Shown here: in pieces, positions 23,244 to 45,116 of the stretch
How positions within the stretch are numbered: the stretch's first letter is position 1
How the letters are laid out: every line of letters starts with the position of its first letter
Source: an uncultured Holophagaceae bacterium
Lineage (GTDB): Bacteria > Acidobacteriota > Holophagae > Holophagales > Holophagaceae
NCBI GenBank assembly: GCA_903880675.1
Contig: CAIRQL010000128.1
Location: 1 to 46,089, forward strand
Reading direction: 5' to 3'
DNA length: 46,089 nt
Notes under the pieces: generated by a model
Databases searched by the model: none
The model's input: only the letters and a program-made list of their open reading frames with translations
Told to the model about the DNA's origin: nothing
Position numbers and translations under genes: made by a program

Positions 23244-26200
23244 GGTGGTCCCGATCTGGCCATTGGCGTCAATGTAGACCGCGATTCCACCCGTCAAGGT
23301 GGTCCCACGGATGCCCGCGATGAAGGTCTTGGCCTGGCCGGTCATCGCCGCACCCGACCCCGAGGCCGTGGTTCCGATGCGGATGGTATTGGCCTCCGCC
23401 GCCACGCCCAAGTGACCGATGGCGATGTTGTAGTTGCCGGTCGTGAGGCTGACGCCGGCCTGGTAGCCTACGCCGATGTTGTTGCTGCCGGTGGTGTTAC
23501 TTGCGAGCGCATTCAATCCCATCGCTGAGTTTTGGTAGCCCGTGGTGTTGGGTTGGAGCGCATTCCAACCCATCGCTGAGTTGTTGTAGCCCGTGGTGTT
23601 GGATTGGAGCGCATTCATACCCACAGCTGAGTTGTAGGAGCCCGTGGTGTTGGCACTGAGCGCCTGCATACCCACAGCTGAGTTGTAGGAGCCAGTGGTG
23701 TTCCCTAGGAGCGCAATGGAACCCACGGCTGAGTTGGCGGTGCCCGTGGTGTTGGCTTGGAGCGCACTCAGACCCATCGCTGAGTTGCTGGAGCCCGTGG
23801 TGTTGGCACTGAGCGCACTCATTCCCATCGCTGAGTTGAAGGTGCCCGTGGTGTTGTAATAGAGCGCATTCGCACCCATCGCTGAGTTGCCGTAGCCCGT
23901 GGTGTTGGAAAGGAGCGCATCCTTACCCACCGCTGAGTTGTAGGAGCCGGTGTTTGCTTGCAGGGCCCCGGTGCCGACCTTGGTGTTAAAGGTTGCGTCG
24001 GAAGCCGTGGAGCCACCCCCCGCCGCTGGCGTCGCCCAGGTGGGTGCGCTGGCGCCGTTGGAGGTGAGCACCTGGCCCGCCGTGCCTGCTGCGGTGGCGG
24101 CGTAGGCGCTGGCGCTGGCGGCGTAGATCACTCCGCCCGCCGTGGGGGCCGTGGCGGTGCCCGTGCCGCCGAGGGTGACGGGCACGGTGCCCAGGCTGAT
24201 GGCCGGGGTGGTGGTACCGGTGGTCACCGTGAGGGGCGCAGTGGCCGTGACACTGGTGACCGTGCCCGAGCCGGCGCTGGCGGCCACGGAACCCAGCTGG
24301 CCATTGGCATCAATGACGACTGCCTGCGTGCCCGTGAGGGTGCTCACGCCCCGGATGCCGGCAATGAAGGTCTTGGCCTGGCCCGTCATCGTCGCACCTG
24401 ACCCCACGGCCGTGGTTCCGATGCGGACGGTGTTGGCCTCGGCGGCGACGCCATCATTTCCAATGGCGATGTTGTAACTCCCGGTGGTCAGGAGAGATCC
24501 TGCACCGAGGCCGAGCGCTATGTTGTAGGTGCCAGTGTTGACAGCAGCGAGCGCAGCTTGGCCGACCGCAGTGTTGTAGTTGCCAGAGTTGTTATTGATA
24601 AGCGATCTCCTACCGATCGCCGTGTTGGAAGTTCCCGTCGTGTTGGAATAGAGGGCAGAGTCGCCAATCGCAACATTAGAAGATCCCGTGGTGTTGCTGA
24701 AGAGGGTGATAGCGCCAAGCGCCGAATTCATAATGCCAGCGCCATTGTTGGTCATGGCCTGGTAACCTATCGCCGTGTTGTTGGAACCTGTGTTTGCCGC
24801 CAGCGCCGAGGTGCCAGCCCTGGTGCTATAGGTTGCATCCGAGCCAACACTGGCCTTGACGTTGGTCAGCAGAGAGCCATCGACCCCGGGCAGCTTCCCG
24901 GTGGTGGGATCCAGCTGCACCACATTGCCAGCCAGGGTGCCGGCATCCAGCTTGGCGGCGGACTTGAGGCTCATGGCGAGGGCCAAATCGGCGAGGGTGC
25001 CGACGCCGGTGCCACCGCTGGCCGCGGGGAGGATGCCCGTCACATGGGTGGTGAGGCCCACCTTGCCCCAGGTGGGGGCCGCTCCGGCGCCGCCGGCGAG
25101 GAGGGCGTTGCCGGTGGCGGTGGCCGTGAGCCGGCTGAGGGTCGTGGTGCCGGAGGCGTAGAGCAGGTCCCCAGCGGTGTAGCTGGACTGGCCCGTGCCA
25201 CCGTTGGCTGCAGCCACCACGCCCGTGAGGGAGCTGGCGGCCATGCCGGCGCTGGCAGCGGTGCCCAGCTGACCGTTCTCGTTGATGACCACGCTCTTGA
25301 GGGTGGTGCCCTCCGGCGTCACGCCGGTGATGCCGTAGATGAAGGTCCTGCCCGTTCCGCTGGAGTTGGCGACTTGCCAGGGGTAGCCGATACGCATGGT
25401 GTTGGCTTCCGCCGCCACACCCACATGTCCGATGGCAATGTTGTTGCTGCCGGTGGTCCAGGCGGCCCCTGCGCTCTCGCCCACAGCAATGTTTTGCGAG
25501 CCGGTGGTCAGCTGGTTGCCTGCACCTTTACCTACCGCAGTGTTGTTGCTGCCAAATGCGACGTTATATAGGGTCCCCATGCCAACGGCCACATTGTTCG
25601 TACCGGTGGTATTCATCATCAGGGCCCAGGAGCCAATGCCAGTGTTCATACCAAGACCCTCATTGCTGTAGAGAGCCTTGTATCCGAGGGCGGTGTTATG
25701 GTATGATTGGCCGTTTTTTTCTAAGGCCTCGGATCCTACTGCGGTGTTATAGGATGCTCGGTTCACTCTTAACGTCATGTAACCCAGGGCAATGTTGTTG
25801 TTCATATCAACACCCCCCGCCTGTTCCATCGCCCCAGTACCGATCTTGATGTTTTTGTTGGAGTCGGAGCCGAGGCTGGTGGCGAGGATGCCGGTGAGCT
25901 GGGAGCCATCCACCGCCGGCAGCTTGGCACTGGCGTCTAGCTGAATCACGTTATTGGCGGCGGTGCCCAGGGTGATGCCCAGGTTGGTGAGGGCTCCCGC
26001 GGCCGTGGTGGCCCCGGTGCCACCGTTGGCGATGGCCAGGGTGCCACCCAGGGTGAGGGTGCCGCTGCTGGTGATGGGCCCGCCGGTGGCGGTGAGCCCC
26101 GTGGTGCCGCCAGCCAGGTTCACGCTGGTGACGGTGCCCGCAGCCGTGCTGCTGGCCACGGAGCCCAGCTGACCGTTGGCGTCAATGACGACTGTCTGCG

Positions 26201-29200
26201 TGCCCGTGAGGCTGCTCACGCCCCGGATGCCGGCGATGAACGTGCGGCTCTGGCCCGAGGCGGGCGTGGTGCCCGTGTTGTAGGCCTTGCCGAGGCGCAG
26301 GGTGTTGGCCTCCCCGGCGGCGGCATCGTAGTCGTTGCCGATGACGATGTTGTAGCTGCCGGTGGTCAGGCTGGCGCCGGCGTAAAAACCCAGGGCGATG
26401 TTGCCTTGTCCTGTGGTGTTGGCAGCCAGGGCGTAGCTGCCCATGGCCACATTCATGCCACCCCCGAGGTTGTTCCACATGGCCATGGAGCCGAAGGCTG
26501 CGTTGCTGGTTCCGTAGTTTGCCGTGAGGGCGCTGTCCCCAAAGGCAGCGTTGTAGTCGCCCGACGTGTTGCCGGAAGGGGCGCCCAGGGCCTGGAATCC
26601 GAAGGCGGAGTTGCTGGTGGAGGAGACCGCCTTGCTCAGGGTTCCGTGGCCGAACGCCGCATTGCGGGCGGGCCTGCTGGCGACGGCCAGGGCGCTGGAG
26701 CCGACGGCCACGTTGGTGCCCCCGGTGGTGACCGCAGCCAGCGCATTGTAGCCAACGGCCACATTGTCGGAGCCTGCGGTGACTGCGAGCAGGGCCTTCG
26801 AGCCCATGGCCGTGTTGTTGGAGCCCGTAACACTGGTGCTGGTGCTCCCCATGGCTTGGTTGCCAAAGGCGCTGTTGTTGATGGCGTCTGGCCCCCCGCC
26901 GTAGAGGGCCTGGTAGCCGAAGCTGGAGTTGAAGGCACCCGCCACGGCGTACTGCGACTGGTAGCCGAAGGCAGAGTTCTGGGGCTTGTCTGAGTTGCCC
27001 CAAAGGGCCTGATAGCCGAAGGCGGAGTTGCCAGATGCCGTGGTGTTCTGATACATGGCCTGGAAACCAAACGCGGAGTTGTAGTTGCCGTAGTTTTCGC
27101 TCAGGGCACTGTGCCCGAAGGCTGCATTCTCCTTGCCGATGATGTTTCTCCACATGGTGGAAACACCAACGGCGGTGTTGGAATAGGCGGTAGTGGCCGA
27201 CATCAGTGAACCACGGCCGAAGGCGGCATTGTTGGAGCCAGTGGTGTTGGAAGTGAGAGCCCCGGTGCCGAAGGCTTGGTTGCTGTAGCCATCGGTATTG
27301 GCAGAGAGGGCCGCGGAGCCGAAGGCTTCATTCCCACCACCACCATTCGTAGAGGCAAGCGCCAGGTAGCCGAAGGCGGAGCTTCCATATGATGTCGTGG
27401 TTCCCTTCATGGCCTGGTAGCCCACGGCGGTGTTGTACTTGCCTGTGGAAACGACGGCCAGGGCCCCAGTGCCTCCCTTGGTGTTGAAGTTGGCATCCGA
27501 GCCGACGCCGGCCGTGAGGTTGGTGAGCAGGGAGCCATCCACCGCCGGGAGCTTGGCGCTGGCATTGAGCTGCACCACATTGTTGGCGGCAGTGCCGAAG
27601 GTAATGCCCAGGTTGGTGAGGGCTCCCGCGGCCGTGGTGGCGCCGGTGCCGCCATCGGTCAGGGGGATGGTGGCCACGGCGGTCATGGCCGTGGTGCCGG
27701 CGCCCTTCACATAGCCGGTCAGGGTGGTGGCGCCGGTGCCGCCGAGGGTCACGGGCACCGTGCCCAGGGTGATGACGGGGGTGGTGGTGCCGGTGGCCAC
27801 GGTGATGGGGCCACCGGTGGCACCGGTGACGCTGGTGACGGTGCCGGTGCCAACGGCCACGCCGTTGATGCGGAAGCTGCTGCCCGTGGAGATATTGACA
27901 TCGCCAACCACATCCAGCTTGTAGACCGGGGTGGTGGTGCCGATGCCGACCTTGCCTTGCGAGTTGATTCGGACCTTTTCTACGGAGGACACCCCATTAT
28001 AGGTGTAGAAAGCCAGGCCAGAATAAGGGACATTGCTATCCTCAAGTATCCCGGCGATTGCGGGCACCTGGTTCCAACGCGTGTCGAACCAGGGTATTGG
28101 TGATAGCAGCAGCTTGGCGCTCTGGCCGACGGTGGACCCCGCCGTGTTGTTGCCCAGCAGGAACTCGCCTGTCGCGGATTTGGCATCGAGTGTCGCCTTT
28201 GGCGCCGTAGTCCCTAGGCCCACTTTGCCTGAGGTGTAGCTGATGTCGCTGCCACTGGTGGTCCACTGGCTACCGGTGAGGGTGGTCCAGGCCACATCCG
28301 TGGCGTTGGTGGTCAGGACCTTGCCGCTGTTGTTCGTCTGGGTGGGCAGCAGGTTAGTGCGGGCTGCCAGTGCCGTGGTGGCACCGGTGCCGCCCTGGGC
28401 CAGGGACAGGGCCGTGGTCAGGTTCGTCAAGCTGGTGATGTCGCTGTTGGCGCCAGAGCCGGCCGCAAGGAGGTTGCTGCGGGCCGCGGTCGCCGTGGTG
28501 GCGCCGGTGCCGCCGAGGGTCAAGGGCACCGTACCCAGGGTGATGACGGGCGTGGTGGTGCCAGTGGCCACCGTGATGGGGCCACCGCTGGTGGCGGTGA
28601 CGCTGGTGACGGTGCCGGTGGTACCAGCGGCGGCGGTGCCCAGCTGACCGTTGGCGTCAATGACCACGATCATAGGACTGGGACCAGCCGGCGTCACACC
28701 GGTGATGCCGGCGATGAAGGTCTTGTTCTGCCCGGTCATGGCAACGCCCGTGCCGCTGGGCGCTGTGCCCAGACGCAGGGTATTGGTATCCGCCGTCACG
28801 CCCTGGTGGCCGATGGCGATGTTGTGGTTGCCGGAAAGTTGGTTGCCGGCCAGGTAGCCCACAGCGATGTTGTTGCTGCCGGTGGTGTTCTGCTGGAGGG
28901 CACCGTAACCCAACCCTGCGTTGTAGGCGCCCGTGGTGTTGTTTAGGAGTGCCGTCGCCCCCATCGCTGCATTGTTGGCGGCGGTGGTGTTGTATTGGAG
29001 CGCATTGTTACCCACGGCTGCGTTGCCGCTGCCGCTGGTGTTGGACGTGAGCGCCTGGAAACCCAGCGCGGAGTTGTAGGCGCCCGTGGTGTTCGAGGTG
29101 AGTGCGTGATCACCCAGCGCGGAGTTGTAGATGCCTGAGGTTAGGCCAGAGAGCGCCAGGTAGCCGGCCTTGGTGTTCCCTCCTGTCGAGCTGATGAGGG

Positions 29201-32200
29201 CGTTGATGTTCGTCAGCAGGGAGCCGTCCACTGCCGGCAGCTTGGCGCTGCCATCCAGCTGGACCACATTGCCGGCGGCGGTGCCCAGGGTGAGCCCCAG
29301 GTTGGCGCGGGCCGCAAGGGCCGAAGTGGCCCCGGTGCCACCGTTACCGATGGCCACGGTGCCGGTGACATTGGCGGCATTGCCGCTGATGTTGCCACTG
29401 ATGTCCGTGCCGGGGATGGTGGTGGCGGCCGTCATGGCCGTGGTGCCCGTGCCCTGCACATAGCCTGTCAGGGAGATGGCGCCGGTGCCCCCATTGGCCA
29501 CGGGCAGGGTGCCCGAGACGTGGGTGGTGAGGCCGAGCTTGCCCCAGGCGGGGGCGGCACTGGTGCCGCCAGAGAGCAGGGCGTTGCCCGCGGCCACATC
29601 GGCCAGTTTGGAAAGGGCGGTGGTGGAGGAGGCGTAGAGCAGGTCACCCACTATGTAGCTGGCCTGGCCCGTGCCGCCCTGGGGGGCGGAGAGGGCCGTG
29701 GTGAGACCCGTCAGCGAGGTGAGGTCACTGTTGGCTCCGGATTTGGCGGCCAGCAGGTTGGCGCGGGCACCCGTATCCGAGGTGGCGCCGGTGCCACCAT
29801 AATTCACGGGCACCGTGCCCAGGGTGATGACGGGCGTGGTGGTGCCGGTGGCGACGGCGAGCGGCGAGCTGGCGGTGACGCTGGTGACGGTGCCGATGCC
29901 GCCGCCGGCGCTGGTGACGGAACCCAGCTGGCCGTTGGCGTCGATGACCACGGTCTGGGTGCCGGTGAGGGTGTTCACGCCCCGGATACCGGCGATGAAG
30001 GTCCGGTTGTGGCCGGTGTTGGGGGTGTAGGTGGCGTCGAGGGGCGTGCCGATGCGGATGGTGTTGGTATCCCCGGCCACGCCGAGATGGGCCAGGTCCA
30101 GGTTGTAGCTCCCGGTGGTGATGTAGGCTCCGGAACTAGCGCCGAGGGCGATGTTGTAGGACCCGGAAGTCTGGGTTAGGGCCTCTGAGCCCACGGCGAC
30201 GTTGGAACCGCCGCCTGCATATTGCATGGTCCAGCGGCCGATGGCCACGTTTTTGCCATAGAGCGCATTGGTAACGCCGCTTAGGGCGGCATTACTCAGG
30301 GCAAGGACGCCGATGGCCGTGTTGGAGTGGCTGTTTGCGCTGGTCGGGAACTGCATGGCCCCCTGGCCGATGGCCACGTTGTCGATGCTATAGGTGCTGC
30401 CCGCCAGGGCCTGGTGGCCGATGGCGGTGCTGTGCTCAGCTCTGTTGCTGGCAGTGAGGGCCTGGTAGCCCAGGGCCGTGTTGGCCGACCAAGCGGCCGC
30501 GTTCGACAGGGAGGCCATAGCGCCGGTGCCGCCCTTGGTGTTGAAGTAGGCATCCGAGACCACGCTGCCGATGACATTCGTCAACTGGGAGCCGTCCACG
30601 GCGGGCAGCTTGGCGCTGCCATCCAGCTTGACGACGTTCCCCGCGGCGGTGCCGGTATTGAGGATGGCGGCGGTGCCCAGGCCCATGGCTGTGGACAGAC
30701 CGGACAGGCTGGTCTGGCCCGTGCCACCGCTGGCCACGGGCAGGGTGCCCGTGACGGCGGTGGTGAGGTCCACCTGGCCCCAGGCCGGCGCCGTGCCGGT
30801 GCCCTTGGCCAGTAGCACATTGCCGGTGGCCGCGGCGTTCAGCTTGGAGAGGGTCGTGGCGCCCGAAGCATAGAGCAGGTCGCCGGTGGTGTAGCTGGCG
30901 AGGCCCGTGCCGCCACTGGCGGGGGCCACCACGCCGGAGAGGGCGGCGGCAGCGATACCGCCGCCCGTGCCCAGCTGGCCGTTGGCATCAATGACCACGG
31001 GCAGGGTGGTGCCAGCGGGCGTCACGCCGGTGACGCCCGCCAGGAAGGCCTTGGTCTGGCTGCCGGCAGTGCCGAGGCGCAGGGTGTTGCTCTCGGTGGC
31101 CGCACCCGCATGGCCCAGGTAGATGTTCTGGCTACCGTTGGTGAGGGTGTTGCCCGCCAGGTAGCCGACGGCGATGTTCTCGGAGTCCCCGGTCTGGCTG
31201 GTGTCTGCGTTCTGCAGGGCGCCCTTGCCCAGGGCCGTGTTCTTGCTACCGGTGCTGTTGGTGGCACCGGCCTGGTGGCCCACGAACGTATTGCTGCTGC
31301 CGGTCTGCAGGCCCGTGCCGGCCTCGAGACCTGCCAGGGTGTTGTTGCTGCCCATGCCGTTGGTGCCGCCGTTGCCGACGCTGAGGTTGCCGCTGGCGCC
31401 GCCCGTGGTGGGGGTCTGCAGGACCTTCGTGCCGCCGATGCTGACGGCGCTGGCGGCGTCCACATTGACGTTACCCACCACGCTCAAGGCGTAGGAGGCG
31501 CTGGCGGCGGTCTTGATGCCCACGTTCTGGCTGCTGCCGATGCCGTTGGCGTTGGAGGTCCAGGGGCCGCTGGGGGCCGTGGACCAGACGATGGCCGAAC
31601 CCGTGGAGGTGAGCACCTGGCCGTTGCTGCCCAGGGTGCTGAGGCCCGTGCCGCCATTGGCGGCAGCCACCACGCCGGTCACATTGGCGGCGCTGCCGCT
31701 GATGTTGCCGCTGATGTCGGCGCCGGGGAGGCTGCTGCTGGCCGTCATGGCCGAGGCGCCGTTGCCCTTCACATAGCCCGTGAGGGTGCCGGCAGCGCCG
31801 GTGCCCCCGTTAGCGACTGCCAGGGTGCCCGTGGCTTCCGTGCCCAGGGCGATGGCGGTCTTGGTGGCCAGAGAGCCCAGGCCCAGGTTGGTGCGGGCGC
31901 CGGCGGCGTCCGTGGCACCGGTGCCGCCGTTGGTCACAGGCACGGTGCCCGTGAGGCTGATGACCGGCGCGGTATTGCCGCTGGTGACCGTGAGGGGCGC
32001 GGAAGCGGTCACACCGGTGACGGTGCCCGCCGCCGGACTGACCGGCACCCAGGCGCTGCCGCTCCAGGCCAGGACCTGATTGGCGGTGGCCCCCATCTGG
32101 TGAAGCTTGGCGGCGGTGACGGAGGCGGAGGCCAGGTTGGTGGCGGTGACGCCGCTGGCGGCCAGGGAGACGGCGCCGGAGGTTTCACTGAGGCCGCCGT

Positions 32201-35200
32201 TGAAGCTGTACACCGTGCCGCTGTTGAACTGGGACCAGGCGCCGTCGCTGTAGACATAGCCCTTGCCGGTGAGGGTGGCAAAGACCGCATCGTTGGCCGC
32301 CGGGGTGGCGCCCGACCAGGCACCGGCACTGTAGGTGGCGATCTGGTTGGCAGTGATGCCCCCGCCCCAGGCGGCGGTGGCGATGTAGCGGTCCCCACTG
32401 ATGGGAGAGCCCGGCGTGGTGTCGCTCATGGCCTTCACGGAAGGCCGCCACACCAGACCCGAGGTGCGGTCCATGACGTACTTCAGGGTGGCGGCATCCG
32501 TGTCGGCGGTGGGAGCAGCCAGGTTGGTGATCTTGTTGGTGGCCATGTTCAGGGCGCCCGTGGCGGACACGGTGCCATCGGCCTTGAGGTAGCCGGCGGT
32601 GGCATGGTTGCCGGTGGCGGCGGCGGCGGCGAAGGTGGTGAAATCCGCCCCGGCGAGGTAGCCGTCCTGGGAAGCAGAAGCCCGGTTGATGCCGAGGCTG
32701 CCGGTGGTGGTGACGGTGCCCGTGAGGGGGGCGGTGGTGGTGACGCTGGTGACGGTGCCGCTGCCCTTGGCGGTGAAGGTGGCCCAGTCAGAGGCGCTGA
32801 GGTAGCCGGCCTGGCCCGAGGCCGCGGCGGGCATGCTGAGGGCGGGCGTGGTGGTGCCGTTGGCCACGGTGATGGGGGCCCCGCCACTGACGCTGACGCT
32901 GGTGACGCCACCGGCCACGCTGCTGCCGGCCCGGAACCAGGCCGTGCCGTTGAACACCATCAGATCCTTGAGGTCCGTGTCATAGACCGCCAGACCCGTG
33001 GCTGGCTCGTAGATGGTGGTGCGCTGGCTGGTGGTCATGCGGGGCGGCAGGAAGCCCTTGTTGGTGCTGGTGAGGTCCAGGACGGCGCTGATGTCCGGGG
33101 CGCTGGTGCCCACGCCCACGGAGCCGGCGGTGCGGACCACATCCGCACCCACCGTCGTGAAGGGCGCAGCGCTCCAGGCCGGGAGGCCGGCGCCGCTGAC
33201 GGTGAGCACCTGGCCCGAGGTACCCACGGCGAGGCCCGCCACCGTATCGGCAGCGGAGGCATAGAGCAGGGCGCCGGCACTGACACTGCTCAGGCCCGTG
33301 CCGCCGTGGGTCGGGTCCACGACGCCGGTGACATTGGCGGCAGTGCCGGTGGTGCTCTGGTTCAGCAGGGGCACATCCCCTGCCTGGAGGGGGCCCAGCA
33401 CCACATTGGTGCCGTTACCGCGCAGGTACTGCCCGCTGGTGGTGCCACCAGCCAGGGCATTGAGGGCGGTCTGGGCCGTGGCGGCCCCGGTGCCGCCCTG
33501 GGCGATGGCCAGGGTGCCGGTGGTGATCTTGCTGGCGGCCAGGGCCGGGATATCGGTGGCGGCAAGGGCGCGGAAGGTGGGCGTGCCCGCGGCCCCGGCG
33601 GGGGCGGCGAGGACGGTGCCAGCGGTCTGGCTGGCCAGGGTGGCCGTGAGGGTGCCGGTGGTGGTGACCGGTGAGTTGGTGACGGTGAAGATGCCCGGCA
33701 GGTCCAGGCCCACGCTGGTGACGGACCCGGCGGTGTTGTCCACCCAGGAGAGGGTGCCGCTGCCGTTGGTGCGGAGCACCTGGCCGCTGGTGCCATCGGC
33801 GGCGGGCAGGGTGAAGGTGAGGCTGGCCGCCGGGGCGTCGGGCCCCTTGAGCGCGATGTAGGTGGGACCACTGACCGTGAGGCCCAGGAAGCGCAGCTCG
33901 CCGGTGTTGCCGGCACTGGCGCCGTAGGCCCCAAGCTGGAGCGCATTCTGCTGGTTGAGGCCGGTGAGGGCGGTGAGGTCGGTGTTGATGCCGGTCTTGG
34001 CGGCGGCCAGGTTGGTGCGGGCGCCAGCGGCGTCCGAGGCCCCGGTGCCACCGGAGGCCACGGGCAGGGTGCCCGTCACTTCGGTGGCCAGGTTCACGGC
34101 GGCGCCGTTGCCGGCCAGGGTGATGCGGCCCTGCTGATCCACGGTGAGGGTGGCCCGGGTGTAGCTGCCAGCAGTCACGGCCGTATCGGCCAGAGTCAGG
34201 GTGCCGGTGCCCGTGATGGGCCCGCCCGTGAGGCCGGTACCCGCGCTCACGCGGGTGACCGTGCCCACGGCGGTGCTCACTCCGAAGGGACCGGCCCAGG
34301 CATGGGCGTTGCCATCAAAGGCATAGAAGCCCGCGGTGCCATCGGTCTGGTAGACCAGCAGGCCCGTGGCCGGATTGCTGATGGCGGCCACCTGGGCGGC
34401 CATCATGCGCGGCACCAGCAGGCCCTTGGTGGTGCTGGAGAGCTCCAGCAAGGCGGTGCCATCGGGCGTCGCCGTACCCAGGCCCACGGCTCCGGCGGTG
34501 TAGACCGCATCGCTGCCGCTGAGGGTGAAGGGGCTGGCGCCGGCATCACCCCTGGGGCCCTGTTCGCCCTGGGCACCGTTTGCGCCCGTAGCACCCGTGG
34601 CGCCCGCGACGCCGGCAGTACCCGTGGCACCCGTGGCGCCGGTGGCGCCCGTGGCACCGCTGGCGCCAGTGGCGCCGTTGGCGCCCGTCGGTCCCTGGGA
34701 ACCCGCGGGCCCCTGGGCCCCGGCGGAGCCATTGGTGCCGCTGGCGCCGGCGGGGCCTTCCGGACCCTGGGCGCCTTGAGCGCCGGCCACGCCCTGGATG
34801 CCCTGGTTGCCCCGGGGCCCCACGATGCTGACGGAATGCTGGGGCCAGGCACCGCCATACTTGGGCCCGAAGATCATGTTGGTGGTGAGGTTCACGTAGA
34901 AGTCACCGTCCGAGCCGGTGCCGGCCGCGGGATCGCCCGTGCCGCTGAGAGCCGCCTGGCCGGCGATGAGGATCTGCCCATCGCTGCCGGAGTTGCCCTG
35001 GGGGCCAGTGGGCCCCGCCACACCCTGCTGGCCCTGGGAACCCGTGGCGCCGGTGAGGCCGTTGCTGCCGGCCACACCCTGGAGGCCCTGCTGACCCTGG
35101 ATGCCCTGCTGGCCCTGGGGCCCCACCATGCTCACGGAACCCGTGGGCCAGCTACCGCCAGCCTTGGGCCCGAAGATCATGTTGGTGGTGATGTTCACGT

Positions 35201-38200
35201 AGAAATCACCATCGGTGCCGGTGTCGCCCGAGGGATCACTGGTGCCGTTGAGGGCCGCCTTGCCCGCGATGAGGATCTCGCCGTTGCTGCCGGCCACGCC
35301 CTGGGGGCCCTGGATGCCGGAGGCGCCCTGGGAGCCCGAGGCGCCGCTCTGACCACTGGCGCCCACTGCGCCCTGGATGCCCTGCCCGCCCGTTTCGCCC
35401 GCTGGGCCCACGGGGCCCGCTGTGCCCTGGGACCCGGTGGCCCCAGTGATACCGGTCAGGCCGATGGCGCCGGTGGCGCCCACCAGGCCCTGGACGCCCG
35501 TGGGGCCCTGGGCCCCGGTGGACCCATTGGTGCCGTTGGCGCCGGCGGGCCCTTCCGGACCCTGGGCCCCCTGAGTGCCGACCACGCCTTGCTGGCCTTG
35601 GAGGCCCCGGGGCCCGACGATGCTGACGGAATTGGTGGGCCACGCACCGCCGACCTTGGGCCCAAAGATCATGTTGTTGGTGATGTTCACGTAGAAGTCA
35701 CCATCGGCCCCGGTGCCGGCCACGGGATCGCCCGCACCACTGAGGGCGGCCTTGCCGGCGATGAGGATCTGGCCGTCGCTGCCGGAGATGCCCTGGGGGC
35801 CCGTGGGGCCCGCCACGCCCTGCTGCCCCTGGGGGCCCGTGGCGCCGAGGAGACCCGTGCTGCCGGCCGCACCCTGGAGGCCCTGCTGGCCCTGATTGCC
35901 CTGCTGGCCCTGGGGGCCGACGATGCTGACGGAACCCGTGGGCCAGCTACCGCCTGCCTTGGGCCCGAAGATCATGTTGGTGGTGATGTTGACGTAGAAA
36001 TCGCCATCGGTGCCGGTCCCTGGGGCGGGATCCGAAGTGCCGTTGAGGGCCGCCTTGCCGGCGATGAGGATTTCGCCATTGCTGCCGGCCACGCCCTGGG
36101 GGCCCTGGATGCCGCTGGTTCCCTGAGCGCCGGTGGCGCCGTTCTGACCGCTGGTGCCAGCGGGGCCCTGAACGCCCTGCCCGCCCGTCTCGCCGGCGGA
36201 ACCCACGGGGCCCACCGCGCCCTGGGCCCCGGTGGCCCCAGTGGCGCCGGTCGCTCCAGTGGCCCCGTCAGTTCCTGCGAGGCCCTGCAGTCCTGTCTCA
36301 CCCTGAGCTCCGGTGACGCCCCGGGCACCGGTCACGCCCTGGGCGCCCGTCGCGCCGGTGGCGCCAGTCGCGCCCTGGGGGCCAGCCACGCCCTGGGATC
36401 CCACCGCGCCAGTGGCACCGGCGGCTCCTTCCGGCCCCTGGGCACCTTGGGTTCCCGCCACACCCTGAAGGCCCTGGAGACCCCGGGGCCCGATGATGCT
36501 GACGGAGTTCGTGGGCCACGCGCCACCGGCCTTGGGCCCAAAGATCATGTTGTTGGTGATGTTCACATAGAAATCGCCATCGGCCCCGGTGCCGGCCACG
36601 GGGTCAGCCGTGCCACTGAGAGCGGCCTTGCCAGCGATGAGGATCTCGCCATCGCTACCCGAAATGCCCTGGGGGCCCGTGGGGCCCGCCACGCCCTGCT
36701 GCCCCTGAGAGCCCGTGGCGCCGCTGAGGCCAGCGTTCCCGGTGATGCCCTGGAGGCCCTGCTGGCCCTGGAGGCCCTGCTGGCCCTGGGGGCCCACCAT
36801 GCTCACGGAACCCGTGGGCCAGCTACCGCCGGCCTTGGGCCCGAAGATCATGTTGGTGGTGGTGTTGACGTAGAAGTCGCCATCGGTGCCGGTCCCTGCA
36901 GCGGGATCGGCGCTGCCATTGAGGGCCGCCTTGCCGGCGATAAGGATTTCGCCATTGCTGCCGGCCACGCCCTGGGGGCCCTGGATGCCGCTGGCACCCT
37001 GGGCGCCGGTGGCACCGCTCAGACCGCTGGCACCCACCACGCCCTGGATGCCCTGCCCGCCTGTTTCACCGGCCGGGCCCACCGGGCCCACGGCCCCCTG
37101 CGCCCCGGTGGCGCCGTTGGCACCGGCCGGTCCCGCGATGCCCTGCGGTCCGGCCTGACCCTGTTGGCCCGTGGGGCCCTGGAGACCCGCCACGCCGCTG
37201 GCACCGGTGGCACCGGTGGTACCCGCCGGTCCCTGGGCGCCCTGGAGACCCTGCAGGCCCTGCAGGCCCCGGGGGCCCACGATGCTCACGGAGTTGGTGG
37301 GCCAGTTGCCGCCGGCCTTGGGGCCGAAGATCATGTTGGTGGTGGTGTTGACAAAGAAGTCGCCGTCCTCACCCGCGCCCGGCAGGGGATCCGCCGTGCC
37401 GTTGAGGGCCGCCTTGCCAGCGATGAGAATCTCGCCGGTGATGCCGGCCACGCCCTGGGGGCCCGTGAGGCCCGTGATGCCCTGGGGGCCTTCGGGGCCC
37501 GTGGCGCCGTTGATGCCGTTGCTGCCCGCGAAGCCCTGGGCGCCCTGGATGCCCTGGAGGCCCTGCTGGCCCTGGGGGCCCACGATGCTGACGGAACCCG
37601 CCGGCCAGCGACCGCCGGCCTTGGGGCCGAAGAGCATGTGGGTGAAGTTGTTGATGTAGAAGTCCCCGTCCGCCCCGATGCCGGAGCCCGGGTCGTTGCT
37701 GCCGCTAAGGGCCGCCTTGCCCGCAACCAGGCTTTCGCCATTGCTGCCAGCCGAGCCCTGGGGGCCCTGGACGCCCTGGGGGCCCTGGGCGCCGGTCTGA
37801 CCGTAGGAGCCTTCCGCACCCCGGGGTCCCGCCAGGCCCGCCAGGCCCGTGGAACCGACGATGCCCATGGAGCCCTGGGGGCCGCCAGCGCCGGTGGCGC
37901 CGGTGGGTCCGAGGGGGCCCTGCTCACCCTTGAGGCCCTGGGTGCCCTGAGGTCCAGCCAGACCCTGGGGGCCCGCCACACCGGCGACGCCTTCGACACC
38001 AGCGGATCCCGCTACGCCCTGAATGCCGCGGGGCCCCAAGGGGCCGACCATGCTCACCGTACCTGTGGGCCAGACGCCGGCCTTGGGTCCGTAGAACACA
38101 TTGGCGACCGTGTCGATGTAGAAGTCGCCGTCGATGCCAAGGGTGTTCGCTGGTGCGCCAGTGCCGTTGAGCACGGCCTTGCCCGCCACGATGGTCTGAC

Positions 38201-39833
38201 CGGCCACACCCTCCTGGCCCTGGGCACCTTCCTGGCCCTGGGGGCCCTGGGACCCCGTGAAGCCCTGCTGGCCCTGGAAGCCCTGGCTGCCCTGGGTGCC
38301 CTGGACGCCCTGCGTGCCCTGGGGTCCCGTGAGGCCACGGAGGCCCTGCTCACCCTGAGAGCCGGTATCGCCCTTGGTGCCAGTGGCGCCGGTGGCGCCC
38401 GCCGCGCCGGTATCGCCCTTGAGGCCCAGGGGGCCTTGGGGGCCCAGCGGTCCCTGGGGACCGGCCACGCCGGCCACGCCGGAGGCGCCGGTGAGACCGG
38501 CCACGCCCTGGGTGCCCTGGAAGCCCTGGAGGCCCTGCTGGCCCCGGGGGCCGACGATGCTCACCGAGTTAGTGGGCCAGGCGCCGGCAGCCTTGGGGCC
38601 AAAGATCATATTGGTGGCCGTGTTCACATAGAAGTCGCCGTCACTGCCGGTGCCGGCGGCGGGATCCGTCGCCCCATGCAGGGCCGCCTTGCCCGCGATC
38701 AGCACCTGGCCATCGCTGCCCATCACACCCTGGGGGCCCGTGGGCCCCGTGCTGCCCTGGATGCCCTGGGGGCCCGTGGCACCGGCCAGACCGTTGCTAC
38801 CCGCGATGCCCTGGGGCCCCTGGATGCCCTGGGTACCCACGCTGCCCTGGGGCCCCACCATGCTCACGGAGCCCGCCAGCCAGGCACCGTTGGTCTTGGG
38901 CCCAAAGATCATGTTGGTGCTGGTGTTCACATAGAAGTCACCCTCGCCGCCGACATTCGACGCCGGATCCGTGCCACCGCTCAGGGACGCGTTGCCCGCG
39001 ATGAGGACCTGCCCGTCATTGCCCTGGGCACCCTTGGGGCCCGTGACACCATTGGGGCCCTGGGGGCCCGTGGCACCCGTGATGCCGGCGGGGCCCCCGG
39101 GGCCAGCCGCGCCCGTCAGACCGATGGAGCCTGTCACGCCCGCAGGGCCCTGGGCCCCGGCGGTGCCGGCCACGCCCGAGAGGCCGGTGGGGCCGGTGAG
39201 ACCCGTCGCGCCAGTGGGGCCGGCGGGACCGCTGGGCCCCTGCGGCCCGGTGGCACCGGCCGTGCCCACCACGGAGGTCGGCACCCACTTGCCGCCGAGG
39301 AACACCAGGGCCTGCCCGTTGGAGGGCGCATTGGTGGTGAGGTCCAGGGGCGTGCCCTGCAGCTTCATCACCAGCGTCGTGTTCTGCGTGCCTGTGACAT
39401 CACCGGCAAAGGGGCCCGTCACTTCCCAGGCACTGCGGGCCTGGAAGGCGGGCACGATGTCGATGTCCGGTGTCAAGGCCAGGCCCGACAGCTTCACATG
39501 CAGCTTCAGCCCCGCCTTGCCCAGCAAGGTCACTGGCAGCGCTGGCATCCCCGTGGCGCCCAGCACCACGGCGTAGAGGCCCTCGTTCACGGTGAGGGTG
39601 AGGTTCCCCGAGGCCCACTGTTCGACCCCGGCGCTGTCGAGGATGGAGAACGCGAAGACGCGCGCCCCATTGGCCGCCGCCGCCCCTTCCATGAGCCGCC
39701 CCTGGTAAGCCAGGGTCGGCGTCGGCGCCACATCCGCCGCCGCAGCGAGCGGCGCGTCCTGGGCCTTCAGCAGCGGCATCGGTGCGCAGGCAACGAGGGC
39801 GGCGATGGTGGGGGTGAGGAATGAGTGGCGCAT
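22869..39833 (-). CDS. Giant collagen-like fibre protein 1 (5,654 aa) with Peptidase_S74 chaperone
   Basis: The ATG at 39833 follows GGAGGTCCC. Residues 1-24 are a signal peptide (LLKAQDA cleavage region). Residues 36-186 are the N-terminal beta domain ([35 protein letters not shown]). Residues about 190-1765 are Gly-X-Y with 11 GDFY modules. Residues about 1770-5530 hold [19 protein letters not shown] and SLTGTVPVA-type tail-fibre-like segments, blocks of 17-residue YadA-head-like repeats and repeated [20 protein letters not shown] units. Residues 5531-5654 are a Peptidase_S74 intramolecular-chaperone domain with a coiled-coil end. This makes a trimeric, self-processing fibre likely (family knowledge plus inference). 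No outer-membrane anchor, RTX or sortase signal is seen, so the secretion and attachment route is open. Cysteine appears only in the signal peptide on my reading. It is followed by its paralogue giant 2. Confidence 0.9.
23490..23960 (-). repeat. 51-bp tandem repeats, about nine units, at the end of giant 1
   Basis: In-frame copies of a 51-bp unit encode NTTGxxNSAxGxxALxx (for example [39 protein letters not shown]). Neighbouring units are nearly identical at DNA level, so the block looks recently amplified and could vary in copy number. Other YadA-head-like blocks in this gene lie at about 24440-24800, 25440-25810, 28800-29170, 30080-30520 and 31090-31350. Confidence 0.8.
26345..27440 (-). 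repeat. Large block of about 20 YadA-head-like units inside giant 1
   Basis: This is a run of diverged 17- to 20-residue units such as [25 protein letters not shown] and [13 protein letters not shown], with occasional insertions ([16 protein letters not shown]). Divergence between units is higher than in the block at 23490-23960, suggesting it is older. It ends with a [25 protein letters not shown] and FIAGIRGVS unit, as the other blocks do. Confidence 0.7.
34540..39265 (-). repeat. Collagen-like Gly-X-Y region of giant 1 with 11 GDFY modules
   Basis: Gly-X-Y triplets are interrupted by 11 modules of the type [29 protein letters not shown]. The cores lie at 38931, 38628, 38118, 37656, 37353, 36870, 36567, 35994, 35691, 35199 and 34896. 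Five of the ten intervals are exactly 303 bp; the others are 510, 462, 483, 573 and 492 bp. In general modules ending [12 protein letters not shown] are followed by the short interval, and modules ending [12 protein letters not shown] by the long one, so the region is built from two-module super-repeats. Confidence 0.9.
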
Positions 39834-39960: not shown

Positions 39961-40479
39961 CTACTTAGGCGGCTCGAACCCATGCCGCACTTTGATCGTT
40001 GGATCCCCCACCACGGTGACGTTGACGGCGGGGATGCTCTCGCCCACCACGGGGGAGTTGCCGATCGCAGTGCCGGTCACGACCTGGGTGGTGCCGGAGG
40101 CCTGGACGAAGTTGGGCGTGGTCACAGCGGCGGGTGGCGCGGGCAGGATGGTGACATTGGCGCTGGCGGTGTAGCGCACATCCTGGCTCCACACGGCGTA
40201 GAGGACGCAGGTGCCGGTTGTGGCGCCGGCTGTGAACAGGCCACTGGAGGTGATGGTCCCGGCGCTGGCGGGCAGCACCGACCACTGGGTCTGGTTGCCC
40301 CAGGGGGTGCTGGCCACGAACTGCAGGCTCTGACCCACGGCCAGGGACCCGGTGCCCGGGGTAATGGTCATGGTCCAGTTGACCGTGGCCACATGGTCGC
40401 CCGAGTGCGAGGAGCCGCTCCAGCAGCCCAGCATGAGGACCAGTGAGGTGGCGCAGAGGAGTCGTAACAGCGTCGTCAT
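39961..40479 (-). CDS. Small Ig-like lipoprotein
   Basis: A 172-residue protein with a lipoprotein signal peptide; the lipobox LMLGC puts the lipidated Cys at 19. The body (about 32-112) is an Ig-like (Big-type) beta domain, with TITPGTGSLAVGQSLQFVAS and SAGTITSSGLFTAGATTG. A second beta-rich stretch extends to the C-terminus (VVGESIPAVNVTVVGDPTIK). GGGAGGCGCC in the 9-bp gap after the barrel gene is its ribosome-binding site, so it is almost certainly co-transcribed with that gene. It could be an outer-membrane anchor or adaptor for the giant fibres (inference). Confidence 0.75.
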   Translation of the reverse strand: MTTLLRLLCATSLVLMLGCWSGSSHSGDHVATVNWTMTITPGTGSLAVGQSLQFVASTPWGNQTQWSVLPASAGTITSSGLFTAGATTGTCVLYAVWSQDVRYTASANVTILPAPPAAVTTPNFVQASGTTQVVTGTAIGNSPVVGESIPAVNVTVVGDPTIKVRHGFEPPK

Positions 40480-40488
40480 GGCGCCTCC

Positions 40489-41097
40489 CTAGAAGTGCCA
40501 GAGGAAGTTAAGGGTCATCGTGCGGGTCGGCAGGTTCTCGTAGCCGTAGTGGCTGGCCACCAGGCGCAGCTCAGCCTCCCGCTGGCGGTCCCAGCGGTAG
40601 GTGCCCGCGAGGCTCAGGGCCTGCCGGGTCCAGCTGCTGGCGCCTGAGGGCGCGAAGCGGCCCGTGGTCCGTTCCAGCCGGTTGCTGCTGTCCACGGTCC
40701 AGCGGATCCAAGCCAAGCCAGGGGCCACCGACCAGCGCTCACCCAGCCAGGGCATGTGCAGGAGGTAGTCAGCGCCGAGGCTCTCGGACTTCACCCGGGT
40801 GCGAATCTCCTGGGTCAGACCACCACTCGTGGCGGACTGGGTGCCTACCCCGTACCAGGCCAGGTCCAGGCGCGAGCGCAGGGTCTGCCCTGGAGCGAAC
40901 GTCCAGTCGCGGTGCCCACCCAGGGTGAGGTTCAGGTTCGAGCCCACGGTGGTGCTCAGGTCGCTGCCGAGGGCCCCCGAAATTCCCGCCTGCACGCCCC
41001 AGCCGGACGGGTCAGGCGGACCCAGGCCCCAGGCGGCAGTCGTACCCAGCAAGGCCCAGGCAAGGGTGGCACCAGTGATAAAAGTCCAGATTCTCAT
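40489..41097 (-). CDS. Outer-membrane beta-barrel-like protein
   Basis: A 202-residue protein with a signal peptide (about 1-24, ending TTAAWGLG). A run of alternating polar/hydrophobic strands follows (SNLNLTLGGHRDWTFAPG, RSRLDLAWYGVG, SLGADYLLHMPWLG, LSLAGTYRW, AELRLVASHYGYEN). It ends in an aromatic strand, MTLNFLWHF, with terminal Phe as in BAM substrates. The size suits an 8- to 10-strand barrel. It is the first gene after the repeat-containing regulatory block at 41143-41180 and leads the structural genes of the locus. A direct role as export pore is unlikely at this size; a surface anchor or assembly factor is possible. Confidence 0.7.
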   Translation of the reverse strand: MRIWTFITGATLAWALLGTTAAWGLGPPDPSGWGVQAGISGALGSDLSTTVGSNLNLTLGGHRDWTFAPGQTLRSRLDLAWYGVGTQSATSGGLTQEIRTRVKSESLGADYLLHMPWLGERWSVAPGLAWIRWTVDSSNRLERTTGRFAPSGASSWTRQALSLAGTYRWDRQREAELRLVASHYGYENLPTRTMTLNFLWHF

Positions 41098-41142
41098 CTG
41101 GCCAAATTCACACCTTTATCCTTGTGGGGCCAAGGAAACCCG

Positions 41143-41180
41143 CCAACACTTCCTGACCATTCCTGACAATTCCTGACACT
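41143..41180 (-). promoter_or_regulatory. Direct-repeat element A (three GTCAGGAA boxes, 10-bp spacing)
   Basis: Read on the minus strand, three exact GTCAGGAA boxes start 10 bp apart, then GTGTTGG. The block ends 46 bp before the barrel-protein ATG. It aligns without gaps to element B at 42312-42349, with 32 of 38 bases identical; weaker similarity goes on for about 15 more bases toward each gene. OmpR-family regulators bind direct repeats with about this spacing, and two such regulators are encoded next door. Binding is inferred. Confidence 0.65.
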
Positions 41181-41268
41181 CTTGGGAACTAAGGGCTCAG
41201 AGCCGCACTTGGGATGCAAAACCCCGTTCTTTTTCTGCGGTGTTCGTTTGAGGTTTTCACTTACCCGC

Positions 41269-41490
41269 TCAGCCTGCTGGGGCAGTCTCGCCAGGACTGC
41301 GACCGTCTTGGCGGCCAGGGCCTAAGGACTCAAGGCGATCCCAGGGGAGCACCTGAACGCCGCTGCGGACCTGCGGCTGGTCGCCGCCGTAGACCAGCCT
41401 TGGTGGAGGTGCAGCTTCATCACCTCCGAGGCCACCCAGCTCTCGAAGATCGCACCCCGCAGAGGGTGAGTCTCCAGCTGGTGTGGCCCG
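41269..41490 (-). pseudogene. Relic of a DUF4143 (AAA_14-type) ATPase gene
   Basis: The 400-bp gap between the second regulator and the barrel gene hides two pieces of a known family on the minus strand. The first, PHQLETHPLRGAIFESWVAS then EVMKLHLHQG (from about 41487 to 41394), is the DUF4143 region. The second, in another frame, is LVYGGDQPQVRSGVQVLPWD then RL, to a TGA at 41269; this matches the usual C-terminal end. About 60-70 residues between them are missing, and the N-terminal ATPase domain is absent. So this is a decayed fragment left after deletion. Confidence 0.6.
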
Positions 41491-41503
41491 AATCCCCCTT
41501 GCC

Positions 41504-42226
41504 TCAGGGGCGCAGCCAGAGGGGGGCGCGGAAGGCGTAGCCGACGCCGTGGCTGGCCTGGATGGGCAGGGGGTCCGCCCCCTTCACCTGGCGCACCTTG
41601 CTGCGGAGGCGGCTGATCTGCGTCTCCAGGCGCTGCATGGCCGGCAGGTCCTGGGGCTGCTCGAGGTTCTGCAGCAGGGCCGAGCGGGCCACCACCTCCC
41701 CCGGATTGAGGGCCAGCAGCTGCAGCAGGCGCAGCTCCGTGGTGGTGAGGGACACGTGCTGGCCCGTGGGCAGACCCAGGGTGGAGTGCAGGGCGTCCAG
41801 GCTGTAGGCGCTTTGGGTGGGGCCGGCCGCCTGCCGCACCCGCTGGTGGAGGTTGCGGATGGCCCCGGCCAGCTCCCGGAGGTCCACGGGCTTCACGAAG
41901 TAGACATCGGCGCCGTCCTGCATCCCTTCGAGCCGGTCATCCAAGGTGCCCCGGGCGGTGAGCATGATGATCCCCAGGGGTGGGTTGCCCGGGGCGGACA
42001 GTCGGCGCGCGATGGCCAGGCCGTTCTCGCCCGGCAGGCCGATATCGAGCACCACCACCGAGGGCCGCTGGCGCTGGAGCTCTGCGTCCAGCGCGACGCC
42101 GTCGGCCACGGCCCTGGCGTCAATGCCGAAATAGGCGAGGCCTGTCACCAGGATGGCCCGCAGCTCGGCCTCGTCCTCGCAGATGAGGAGCGGGATGCGG
42201 TCAGTGGGGCTCGAAGGAGGAGGCAT
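41504..42226 (-). CDS. OmpR-type response regulator (second of the pair)
   Basis: A 240-residue protein from ATG 42226. The receiver domain (about 11-127) has the acidic pair at E17/D18, the phospho-acceptor Asp61 (SVVVLDIGLPG), Thr90 and Lys112 (YFVKP). A winged-helix Trans_reg_C domain (about 140-235) ends in ASHGVGYAFRAPLWLRP. The frame also allows a TTG start at 42274, adding 16 residues. I prefer the ATG because the extra residues look unrelated, although neither start has a strong ribosome-binding site. It is closely similar along its length to the regulator at 44340-45116. Direct-repeat element B lies upstream, which suggests autoregulation. Confidence 0.85.
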   Translation of the reverse strand: MPPPSSPTDRIPLLICEDEAELRAILVTGLAYFGIDARAVADGVALDAELQRQRPSVVVLDIGLPGENGLAIARRLSAPGNPPLGIIMLTARGTLDDRLEGMQDGADVYFVKPVDLRELAGAIRNLHQRVRQAAGPTQSAYSLDALHSTLGLPTGQHVSLTTTELRLLQLLALNPGEVVARSALLQNLEQPQDLPAMQRLETQISRLRSKVRQVKGADPLPIQASHGVGYAFRAPLWLRP

Positions 42227-42311
42227 GGCAGGCCGGCTGAGGGTCCATCCACAAGGGAATCGGAACCCGGCCAAGGTGGCATCCCCGACCGGGAATGCCT
42301 ACGTAAACCGA

Positions 42312-42349
42312 CCAACACTTCCTGTCCAATCCTGGCAATTTCTTACACC
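42312..42349 (-). promoter_or_regulatory. Direct-repeat element B, upstream of the second regulator
   Basis: Gap-free match to element A (32/38 bases), with degenerate boxes GTAAGAAA, GCCAGGAT and GACAGGAA at 10-bp steps followed by GTGTTGG. It overlaps the last codons of the histidine kinase gene (TAA at 42343-42345) and lies 38 bp before the possible TTG start, or 86 bp before the ATG start, of the regulator. The most conserved part is the box nearest the gene plus GTGTTGG. Confidence 0.6.
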
Positions 42350-44343
42350 GATGCCCCGGGGGGCAGGGTCAGGGTGAACGTGGTCCCGCGCCCCAGCTGG
42401 CTCTCCACCGTCAGCTCGCCGCCGTGCAGGTGGGCAATCTCCCGGGCCAGGTAGAGGCCCAGGCCACTGCCGTCCACTTCCGGCAGCTGCCCCGTGCGGT
42501 AGAAGCGATCAAAGATTCTCGGGAGCACGGCAGGAGGGATGCCGATGCCGTGATCGGCCACAGACACCCGCAGGCCGCCGCCAGGCAGCCCCAAGGCAGT
42601 CACGACGATGGCCCCGCCCTCGGGGGAGTAGTGGATGGCGTTCTCCACCAGGTTGCCCACCAGGATGGAGATCATGTTGGGGTCCAGGCGACACATGGCT
42701 GGCAGGTGCTCCAGGCGCAGCTCGACGGGGTGCCTGCCTGGATCGGCATCCACGCCTGCCAGAACGGTATCCAGGAGCTCCTCGGGGGCCACGGCTTCCG
42801 GTGTCAGGCGCCACTGCCCACTGCCCAGCTTGTCCTGGCGCAAGGCCCCATCCAGGAAGCCCAGGAGCTTTTGGACCTTGGCCCGGATGGTGGCGGCGGG
42901 CGAGGGGTTCCCTGGGGGACTGGGCCCGTCCTGCAGCTCCAGCAGCTGGGCGGTGCCGTCGATGATGGCGAGGGGTGTACGGAACTCGTGGCTCACGGTC
43001 TGGATGAGGCGGCGCTGTCCCTCCATGAGCTCCTGGGCCGTCACCAGGGCCGCTTCGGCCCGCTCCTTGGCCACCCCCAGGTCCGCGGTCCGCTCCGCCA
43101 CGAGGCTGTCCAGGCGCCGCGTCTCTTCCTGGGTGTTGCGCAGCGTCAGGGCCAGGGCCTCGTCGCGCTCCCGCTGGATGCGGAGGAGGCGGGTCACCAC
43201 AGGCAGGTTCATGGCGGTGACGTGGAGATAGACGGCCACATCCCCGATGTGTCCATTCAGCCACTCGATGCGAGGGCCCCCCATGTTCCGGGCCACGATG
43301 TAGCCCCCGAGTAGAAGCATGGGCAAGAAGGTGAACAGGTAGAAGCGAGCCGCAGTGTTCCCGCGCAGCACCAGCCAGCAGGCCACAACCACCAGGAAGG
43401 CCACCTGCACGAGGAAGACGAGCGAGAGCGGCGGCCCCACCAGGGTGTTGTAGCCCGCCAGGCGGGCGGCGGCTCCCGCCAGACCGACGCTTATGCCCGT
43501 AAGGGTCATGACCCGGTCCAGGCGGGGGGCGCTGTCCCGCAGGTCCACGATGGACGAGAAGACCGGCCAGATGAGGACCAGGAACCCCGGGAAGCAGACC
43601 GAGAGGACCCAGTAGTCGAGCCTGGGCTGCTCCGGGGCCAGCAGGTCCGCAAGGACACCGCTGAAGGACAGCATGAAGGTCGCGGTGAGCAGTGCGTAGG
43701 CGGAATAGAGGAGGCTGACCCGGTCTCTGAGGGCGACACCGATGGTGAAATGAATGAGCGCCAGCAAGGTCAGGAGGCCCACCCCCAGGCCGAACCAGAA
43801 GTGGTCCCGAACCATGCGCTCCGCATAGGCGGGGGGATCCCACAGGATGGGCTCTAGCTCCACAGTGCCCAGGGAGGCCACGCGCAGGTACAACGTCTCC
43901 ACCCCAGTGCCCGGATCCAGCAGGAAGGTCGGAAACCGCACGGGCACAGAGCGCCGGGAGTAGGGCACGGTGCGGCCGTTGGCCAGGACGGTCCAGTGTC
44001 CCTCCGGGTTTCGGCGGTACAGGTCGGCATGGTCCAGGAGCGCCGTGGGCACCTCCAGCCAGCGCTCACCCGTGGCACCCGTCCAGTCCAGTTGGAGGCG
44101 CACCCACACGGCCCCGCTCTGGAAGCCGTAGGCGCCAGTGTCCGGGAGCGCTTGGAAGGCCGTGGCCGGGGCCGCGTGGACCGCCTCCACCCCCAGGCTG
44201 CGGGTGGCATCCACCTGCGCCACCGCATGGGCTCCCAGGAGCTGGCGCTCCCCCTGGACGCGCAGCGGCTCGGCAGCCCCAGCCAGGAGGGGCGCAAGCA
44301 GGAGGAGCAGGGCCAGGACCCCCCGCTGGGGGCGGCAGGTCAC
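42343..44343 (-). CDS. 7TMR-DISM sensor histidine kinase
   Basis: A 666-residue kinase. It has a signal peptide (1-23) and a periplasmic 7TMR-DISM extracellular domain of type 2 (about 35-175, FQSGAVWVRLQLDW, LDHADLYRRNPEGHW). The seven-helix membrane domain spans about 182-392. A short coiled coil (395-440) leads to HisKA with His452 (TVSHEFRTPLAII) and an HATPase domain with N-box NLVENAIHYS (564-573), DHGIGIP (597-603) and GSGLGLYL (625-632). All catalytic motifs are intact. The DISM type-2 domain has a jelly-roll-like fold and may bind sugars, so the signal could be a carbohydrate (family-based inference). Its GTG start overlaps the stop of the upstream regulator as GTGA, so the two are translationally coupled. 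Confidence 0.92.
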   Translation of the reverse strand: MTCRPQRGVLALLLLLAPLLAGAAEPLRVQGERQLLGAHAVAQVDATRSLGVEAVHAAPATAFQALPDTGAYGFQSGAVWVRLQLDWTGATGERWLEVPTALLDHADLYRRNPEGHWTVLANGRTVPYSRRSVPVRFPTFLLDPGTGVETLYLRVASLGTVELEPILWDPPAYAERMVRDHFWFGLGVGLLTLLALIHFTIGVALRDRVSLLYSAYALLTATFMLSFSGVLADLLAPEQPRLDYWVLSVCFPGFLVLIWPVFSSIVDLRDSAPRLDRVMTLTGISVGLAGAAARLAGYNTLVGPPLSLVFLVQVAFLVVVACWLVLRGNTAARFYLFTFLPMLLLGGYIVARNMGGPRIEWLNGHIGDVAVYLHVTAMNLPVVTRLLRIQRERDEALALTLRNTQEETRRLDSLVAERTADLGVAKERAEAALVTAQELMEGQRRLIQTVSHEFRTPLAIIDGTAQLLELQDGPSPPGNPSPAATIRAKVQKLLGFLDGALRQDKLGSGQWRLTPEAVAPEELLDTVLAGVDADPGRHPVELRLEHLPAMCRLDPNMISILVGNLVENAIHYSPEGGAIVVTALGLPGGGLRVSVADHGIGIPPAVLPRIFDRFYRTGQLPEVDGSGLGLYLAREIAHLHGGELTVESQLGRGTTFTLTLPPGASV

Positions 44344-45116
44344 GCGTGCAGCCGCAGGTGGGCCAGGAACGCATAGCCCACGCCGTGGCGGGCATGGAGC
44401 GGTAGGGACTCGGCCCCGGAGTGCTTGCGTACCTTGCTGCGGAGGCGGCTGATCTGGGTCTCCAGGCGCTGCATCCCCGGCAGGTCCATGGGCAGCTGGA
44501 GGTTCCGGAGGAGGTCCACGCGCTCCACCACCTCGCCGGGGTTCTGGGCCAGGGCCTGGAGGATGCGCAGCTCCGTGGCCGTGAGGGGGACCTGCTCGCC
44601 GGTGGGCAGGCCCAGCTGCGAGTGCAGCGGGTCCAGGGTGTAGATGCCGACCCCAGCCTCCTCCTGGGCCGGCGGGCTCACCCGCCGGTGGAGGTTCCGC
44701 ACGGCAAAGGCCAGCTCCCGGAGGTCCACGGGCTTGACGAAATAGACATCGGCCCCATCCCGCAAACCCTCGAGGCGATCATCCAGGGCCCCGCGGGCCG
44801 TGAGCAGGATGATGCCGATGGGGGCACCCCCCGCCGCCCGCAGGCGCCGGGCGATGGAGAGGCCATCTTCACCGGGCAGGCCGATGTCCAGCACCACCAC
44901 CGTGGGCCGGTGCTGCACCAGGGCCCGGTCCAGGGCCTCACCGTTCGCCACGCCCCGGGCATCGATGCCGAAGTGGGGCAGGCCCGCCAGCAGGATGGCC
45001 AGCAGGTCGGGGTCGTCCTCGCAGACCACCAGGCGGAGGGCGGACTGACCTTCCCGGGGGAAAGGCAGGGCGCTGGGTTCGCCGGCATCGGTTCCCGGCA
45101 GGGCATTCAGGGTCAT
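44340..45116 (-). CDS. OmpR-type response regulator (first of the pair)
   Basis: The start at ATG 45116 is fixed by GGGGAGGATCG directly upstream; the frame reaches back to 45215 but that part lacks a ribosome-binding site. Of the 258 residues, 1-26 are a flexible N-terminus. The receiver is about 27-145, with E33/D34/D35, phospho-acceptor Asp77 (TVVVLDIGLPG), Thr106 and Lys128 (YFVKP). Trans_reg_C is about 155-252, ending HARHGVGYAFLAHLRLHA. It is the first gene of the minus-strand locus and overlaps the kinase gene, making it the likely cognate partner. The second regulator downstream is a paralogue with the same layout. Confidence 0.92.
   Translation of the reverse strand: MTLNALPGTDAGEPSALPFPREGQSALRLVVCEDDPDLLAILLAGLPHFGIDARGVANGEALDRALVQHRPTVVVLDIGLPGEDGLSIARRLRAAGGAPIGIILLTARGALDDRLEGLRDGADVYFVKPVDLRELAFAVRNLHRRVSPPAQEEAGVGIYTLDPLHSQLGLPTGEQVPLTATELRILQALAQNPGEVVERVDLLRNLQLPMDLPGMQRLETQISRLRSKVRKHSGAESLPLHARHGVGYAFLAHLRLHA

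Follow-up and report, generated by a model that had tools for sequence, protein, structure and literature searches.

Two 38-bp blocks, A and B, stand on the minus strand of the window (the whole stretch of 46,089 nucleotides analysed, from an uncultured Holophagaceae bacterium), one before a set of surface-protein genes and the other before a response regulator gene. The locus raises the question of whether these blocks are regulatory sites, and if so for which regulator and to what effect.

Genes and elements of the locus

The minus-strand order is RR1, HK, B, RR2, A, barrel, Ig-lipoprotein and giant fibre, as follows.

44340..45116, minus strand: RR1, OmpR-family response regulator (PF00072 and PF00486), probable start at 45116, frame open to 45215
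42343..44343, minus strand: HK, histidine kinase with 7TMR-DISMED2, 7TMR-DISM_7TM, HisKA and HATPase_c domains (Pfam)
42312..42349, minus strand: element B, degenerate triple box (42339-42346, 42329-42336, 42319-42326), upstream of RR2
41504..42226, minus strand: RR2, OmpR-family response regulator with receiver and Trans_reg_C domains (Pfam PF00072, 5.6e-20; PF00486, 2e-16)
41143..41180, minus strand: element A, three GTCAGGAA boxes, upstream of the barrel, Ig-lipoprotein and giant-fibre genes
41141..41148, minus strand: degenerate fourth half-box of A, TGTTGGCG, keeping the 10-bp spacing, conserved across elements, putative role
40489..41097, minus strand: eight-stranded outer-membrane barrel (OmpA/OmpX fold, predicted structure) with signal peptide, first gene behind A
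39961..40479, minus strand: small Ig-like lipoprotein, a homologue of which weakly matches Big_2
22869..39833, minus strand: giant collagen-like fibre protein, 5654 aa, with C-terminal Peptidase_S74 (endosialidase chaperone)

RR1 and RR2 are 66% identical and have the recognition helix MQRLETQISRLRSKVR in common. The barrel was modelled by AlphaFold with a pLDDT of 77.7, and Foldseek matched the model to OmpA (E 4e-8) and OmpX (5e-5). Two giant genes follow one another in the window (5396-22642 and 22869-39833); their products, of 5748 and 5654 aa, share 73% identity in the N-terminal domain. Upstream of RR1 and of the second giant gene no box scored above 13/24, and none was found before the other giant genes of the host genome.

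A (41143-41180) and B (42312-42349) were aligned without gaps at 32/38 identical bases, as an earlier note on this DNA had claimed. The best match to A in Markov-1 sequence (20 x 500 kb, i.e. 10 Mb) was 25/38, and the next unrelated place on the plus strand reached 20/38. The three perfect boxes described for A were likewise recovered, as minus-strand GTCAGGAA in exact 10-bp steps (41170-41177, 41160-41167 and 41150-41157). When three mismatches were allowed, A was the only triple GTCAGGAA of the window (0 expected from shuffles), and a motif-free scan of the window returned no other tandem triple 8-mers of period 10 or 11. All three boxes of B are degenerate (GTAAGAAA, GCCAGGAT and GACAGGAA).

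The surroundings of A and B had been called unrelated, which holds only in part: on the minus strand the downstream flanks remain alike over TGTTGGYSGGTTT, which forms a fourth half-box, and in paralogous elements the likeness extends to a -10-like hexamer some 40 bp beyond. As to the OmpR-family dimer arrangement proposed for the boxes, the 10-bp repeats stand, and the dimers are unsettled, there being three boxes and a degenerate fourth. The kinase stop codon TAA (kinase end 42343) lies inside box 1 of B, which accounts for the deviation of that box and for the GTAAG form kept by B-class elements in all species. One element of another class (C, described below), on contig C98 of genome G003, has GTAAG though it contains no such stop.

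Distribution in the host genome and its relatives

A sequence-only profile of 54 positions was built from 13 elements and used for scanning. The earlier note had named many unrelated genomic copies as an outcome that would refute its reading; in the host genome the profile returned A (E 1.1e-16) and B (2.9e-13) alone, and as this is a 72%-complete MAG, the size of the regulon is a lower bound. Among 47 congeners, 17 matches were obtained at E <= 5e-8, in six genomes, with no further matches below E 0.07. All 17 either adjoin an RR1/HK/RR2 system or precede a homologous barrel, Ig-lipoprotein or giant-fibre gene, so that the position described for the two blocks is kept across relatives. Extension to 93 genomes of the class added just two genomes, with weak matches (E 0.004-0.009).

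Elements were classed by the gene behind them: B precedes RR2; A precedes a barrel, Ig-lipoprotein or giant-fibre gene; and the C class precedes giants or barrel/Ig-lipoprotein genes elsewhere, on other contigs. The element was present in 6/7 genomes with the RR1/HK/RR2 system (RR homologues >60% identical) and in 0/40 without it (Fisher p = 6.5e-7, uncorrected for kinship), which supports the proposed link between the two-component system and the structural genes. In the seventh RR-bearing genome, G035, the contig stops inside the kinase. The N-terminal domain of the giant fibre is far commoner than the box (44/77 genomes of the family), and the box therefore marks the regulator, not the fibre gene. 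When RR2 was searched for at one genome per species, distant relatives only were retrieved.

A relaxed pattern, TGTNAGNAANTGTNAGNAA (TGTNAGNAAN twice at a 10-bp step), gave 12 matches in the 47 genomes, and reversed-pattern controls gave 0. All 12 lie beside an RR-family gene or belong to full elements before a giant-fibre gene; the pattern was written after some of the loci had been seen, and the finding is the absence of matches elsewhere. In G020, G028, G067 and G063, whose RRs are about 50% identical, TGTRAGAAAG-TGTRAGNAAA lies upstream of a divergent giant gene of approximately 1700-2000 aa. This giant is a tandem Ig-repeat protein in G020 and G067, the two tested, and in G020 an OmpA-family gene comes next after it. 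Near-matches were also located directly behind the RR stop codon in G016 and G031.

Paralogous systems with RRs about 44% and HKs about 32% identical were found at L128 (G023:C62), L129 (G022:C7) and L130 (G069:C11). They are without the GTCAGGAA box, though some adjoin barrel, Ig-lipoprotein or giant-fibre genes. At L128 and L129 an A/T-rich, decamer-like region occupies the place upstream of the barrel/Ig-lipoprotein genes where a box would be. In G023 this region reads TGTCAAAGAT TATTAAAAAT CATCAAAAAT, which counts as no more than a lead, since high scores come readily to A/T-rich sequence. RR1 homologues in G003 and G029 (L072:1560-4496 and L076:1052-3988) are paired with a different kinase, of 978 aa.

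These scans bear on whether A and B could be copies of a dispersed or mobile repeat, or a target duplication produced when the RR2 gene was inserted. The two blocks do flank RR2 as direct repeats, a mobile AbiE-like cassette lies nearby in a relative, and another 10-bp family, arrays of GTGTTCATCG, is dispersed in the host genome (18 matches). Against such an origin, the host genome holds two copies only, copies in relatives precede giant genes with no RR2 in between, and conservation is periodic and promoter-like. Moreover, each of the A and B classes is conserved among species, with a systematic difference between the two (GTCAG vs GTAAG). A repeat or duplication origin is thus largely refuted by host copy number, the congener profile scan and the relaxed-pattern scan, and is considered extremely improbable.

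The GTGTTCATCG family is absent from the window. Its arrays often form inverted pairs about 70-120 bp across (G000:C96:3536-3647, C279:8397-8516 and C77:1814-1908), and up to 7 or more units were counted at L130:10105-10180.

Putative promoter layout

Six non-orthologous element classes were aligned by their boxes. A TGTTNGTCGGTTT-like sequence follows box 3 directly, and a hexamer GANTTT lies about 40 bp after box 3, of which A (position 2) and T (position 6) are invariant among the six classes; random shifts never matched this conservation (0/500 permutations). The following promoter features were assigned.

41128..41133, minus strand: -35-like hexamer TTGGCC of promoter A, assigned from position and resemblance only
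41104..41109, minus strand: -10-like hexamer GAATTT of promoter A, kept at constant spacing across six classes, putative role
42273..42278, minus strand: -10-like hexamer CACCTT of promoter B, putative

Transcription is predicted to start at approximately 41097 (A) and 42266 (B). The predicted +1 of A coincides with the ATG of the barrel gene, and therefore either the transcript would lack a leader or the -10 is misplaced. A TTGG-like -35 fits 17-18 bp upstream of the -10 in several elements; B of the window, the A2 class and several other elements have poor -35-like hexamers. With the boxes just upstream of a putative weak promoter, the layout is that expected for an activator.

OmpR-family regulators are able to activate or repress, so that the sites might instead keep expression of RR2 and the fibre genes low until a signal is received. 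Against this, the boxes are placed before the putative -35 and leave the -10 region free, and the -35/-10 sequences are weak, as in activator-dependent promoters; repression is accordingly judged unlikely.

The repeats might also function at the RNA level, where a translational regulator would bind them. The CsrA-type RNA site is ANGGA; the repeats read CNGGA, and CsrA-type sites were rejected. Short direct repeats before start codons have been given such a role in other bacteria: in Beggiatoaceae, TAACTGA direct repeats occur in 169 sets per genome, often end at the start codon and are proposed to act in translation (PMC4679880). The present repeats share with these their shortness, direct orientation and place upstream of genes, and differ in being promoter-placed, in numbering 2-6 copies per genome and in being tied to one regulator family. 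That family is DNA-binding, a putative promoter lies between boxes and genes, and the distance to the start codon varies, all of which makes a role in RNA scarcely credible.

Regulator assignment

Further OmpR-family regulators are present in these genomes, and one of them, not RR1 or RR2, might read the boxes. Box presence, however, tracks the RR1/RR2 family and not the others, down to homologues about 50% identical, and reading by another regulator is considered very unlikely.

Within the RR1/RR2 family, the relative G030 is informative. Its RR2 is receiver-only (131 aa, L077:529-924) with the phosphorylation site kept, and no remnant of a DNA-binding domain was detected before element A; its A is nonetheless perfect and its B good. 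Therefore either RR1 suffices or the sites are relics. RR1 alone probably serves the predicted sites, although loss of the DNA-binding domain may be recent and the sites relics of the earlier state. The receiver-only RR2 is possibly a phosphate sink. In G023 an AbiE-like toxin-antitoxin cassette is inserted between kinase and RR2 (L074:11041-12520; partly L075). The final ~60 bp of the kinase gene recur beyond the cassette, and B stays with RR2.

Autoregulation had also been suggested. Since the element stands before RR2 but not before the RR1-kinase operon, which has no box, autoregulation is confined to RR2 and would obtain if RR2 binds its own promoter; control of RR2 through the element may be feed-forward from RR1.

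Discussion

A and B are very likely the activator-type operator-promoters of one OmpR/PhoB-family two-component system, RR1-HK-RR2, as read from their sequence and context. This analysis computed the element together with its conservation, rarity, linkage to the regulator family and promoter-like layout; we infer the identity of the binding regulator, its activating effect and the logic of phosphorylation. The 7TMR-DISM kinase would phosphorylate RR1 and probably RR2 too. Phosphorylated RR1, helped by phosphorylated RR2, would then occupy the 10-bp direct repeats head-to-tail, on three good boxes and a degenerate fourth, and the bound regulators would recruit RNA polymerase to a weak promoter whose -10 follows box 3 at a distance of about 40 bp. 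The barrel, Ig-lipoprotein and giant-fibre genes would be turned on from A; RR2 would be turned on from B, which would give positive feed-forward or autoregulation.

Tor boxes, which also have a 10-nt step, offer one comparison. TorR, an OmpR-family activator, binds four or more short repeats upstream of torCAD (PMC9239176). Short repeats paired with an OmpR-family regulator are common to both systems, whereas the sequence and the sensor differ, and the tor regulon serves TMAO respiration: where TorR controls the TMAO reductase operon, a barrel, an Ig-lipoprotein and a giant fibre lie behind A. RstA-DNA structures show head-to-tail binding of winged-helix-turn-helix domains on tandem repeats (PMC4117788). 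With the operators of the OmpR/PhoB family (RstA box, PhoB box) the present elements share tandem direct repeats of 10-11 bp on one helix face and linkage to a winged-helix response regulator gene; they differ in sequence (TGTNAGGAAN), in having three good boxes and a degenerate fourth, and in a regulon of giant surface fibres. A literature search found nothing on this regulon. On sequence grounds the regulon is new, though of the known OmpR-family kind.

A wider reading is put forward tentatively, as possible but less probable than not being so. The boxes may form a regulatory code that is specific to this lineage and governs giant surface fibres, with one kinase and two regulators, in which one and the same operator of three to four boxes would let RR1 fire both RR2 and the fibre genes. 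RR2 would be an amplifier or, where it lacks the DNA-binding domain, a phosphate sink. Box and regulator family would co-diverge while the fibre cargo is exchanged (collagen-like vs Ig-repeat giants).

In this locus a sensor system not studied before is connected with some of these genomes' largest genes (proteins >5,600 aa), by a predicted operator defined exactly enough for testing. It also presents a compact case of regulator duplication and box divergence building a surface-protein regulon, with RR2 truncation in one relative and exchange of the giant behind the same box.
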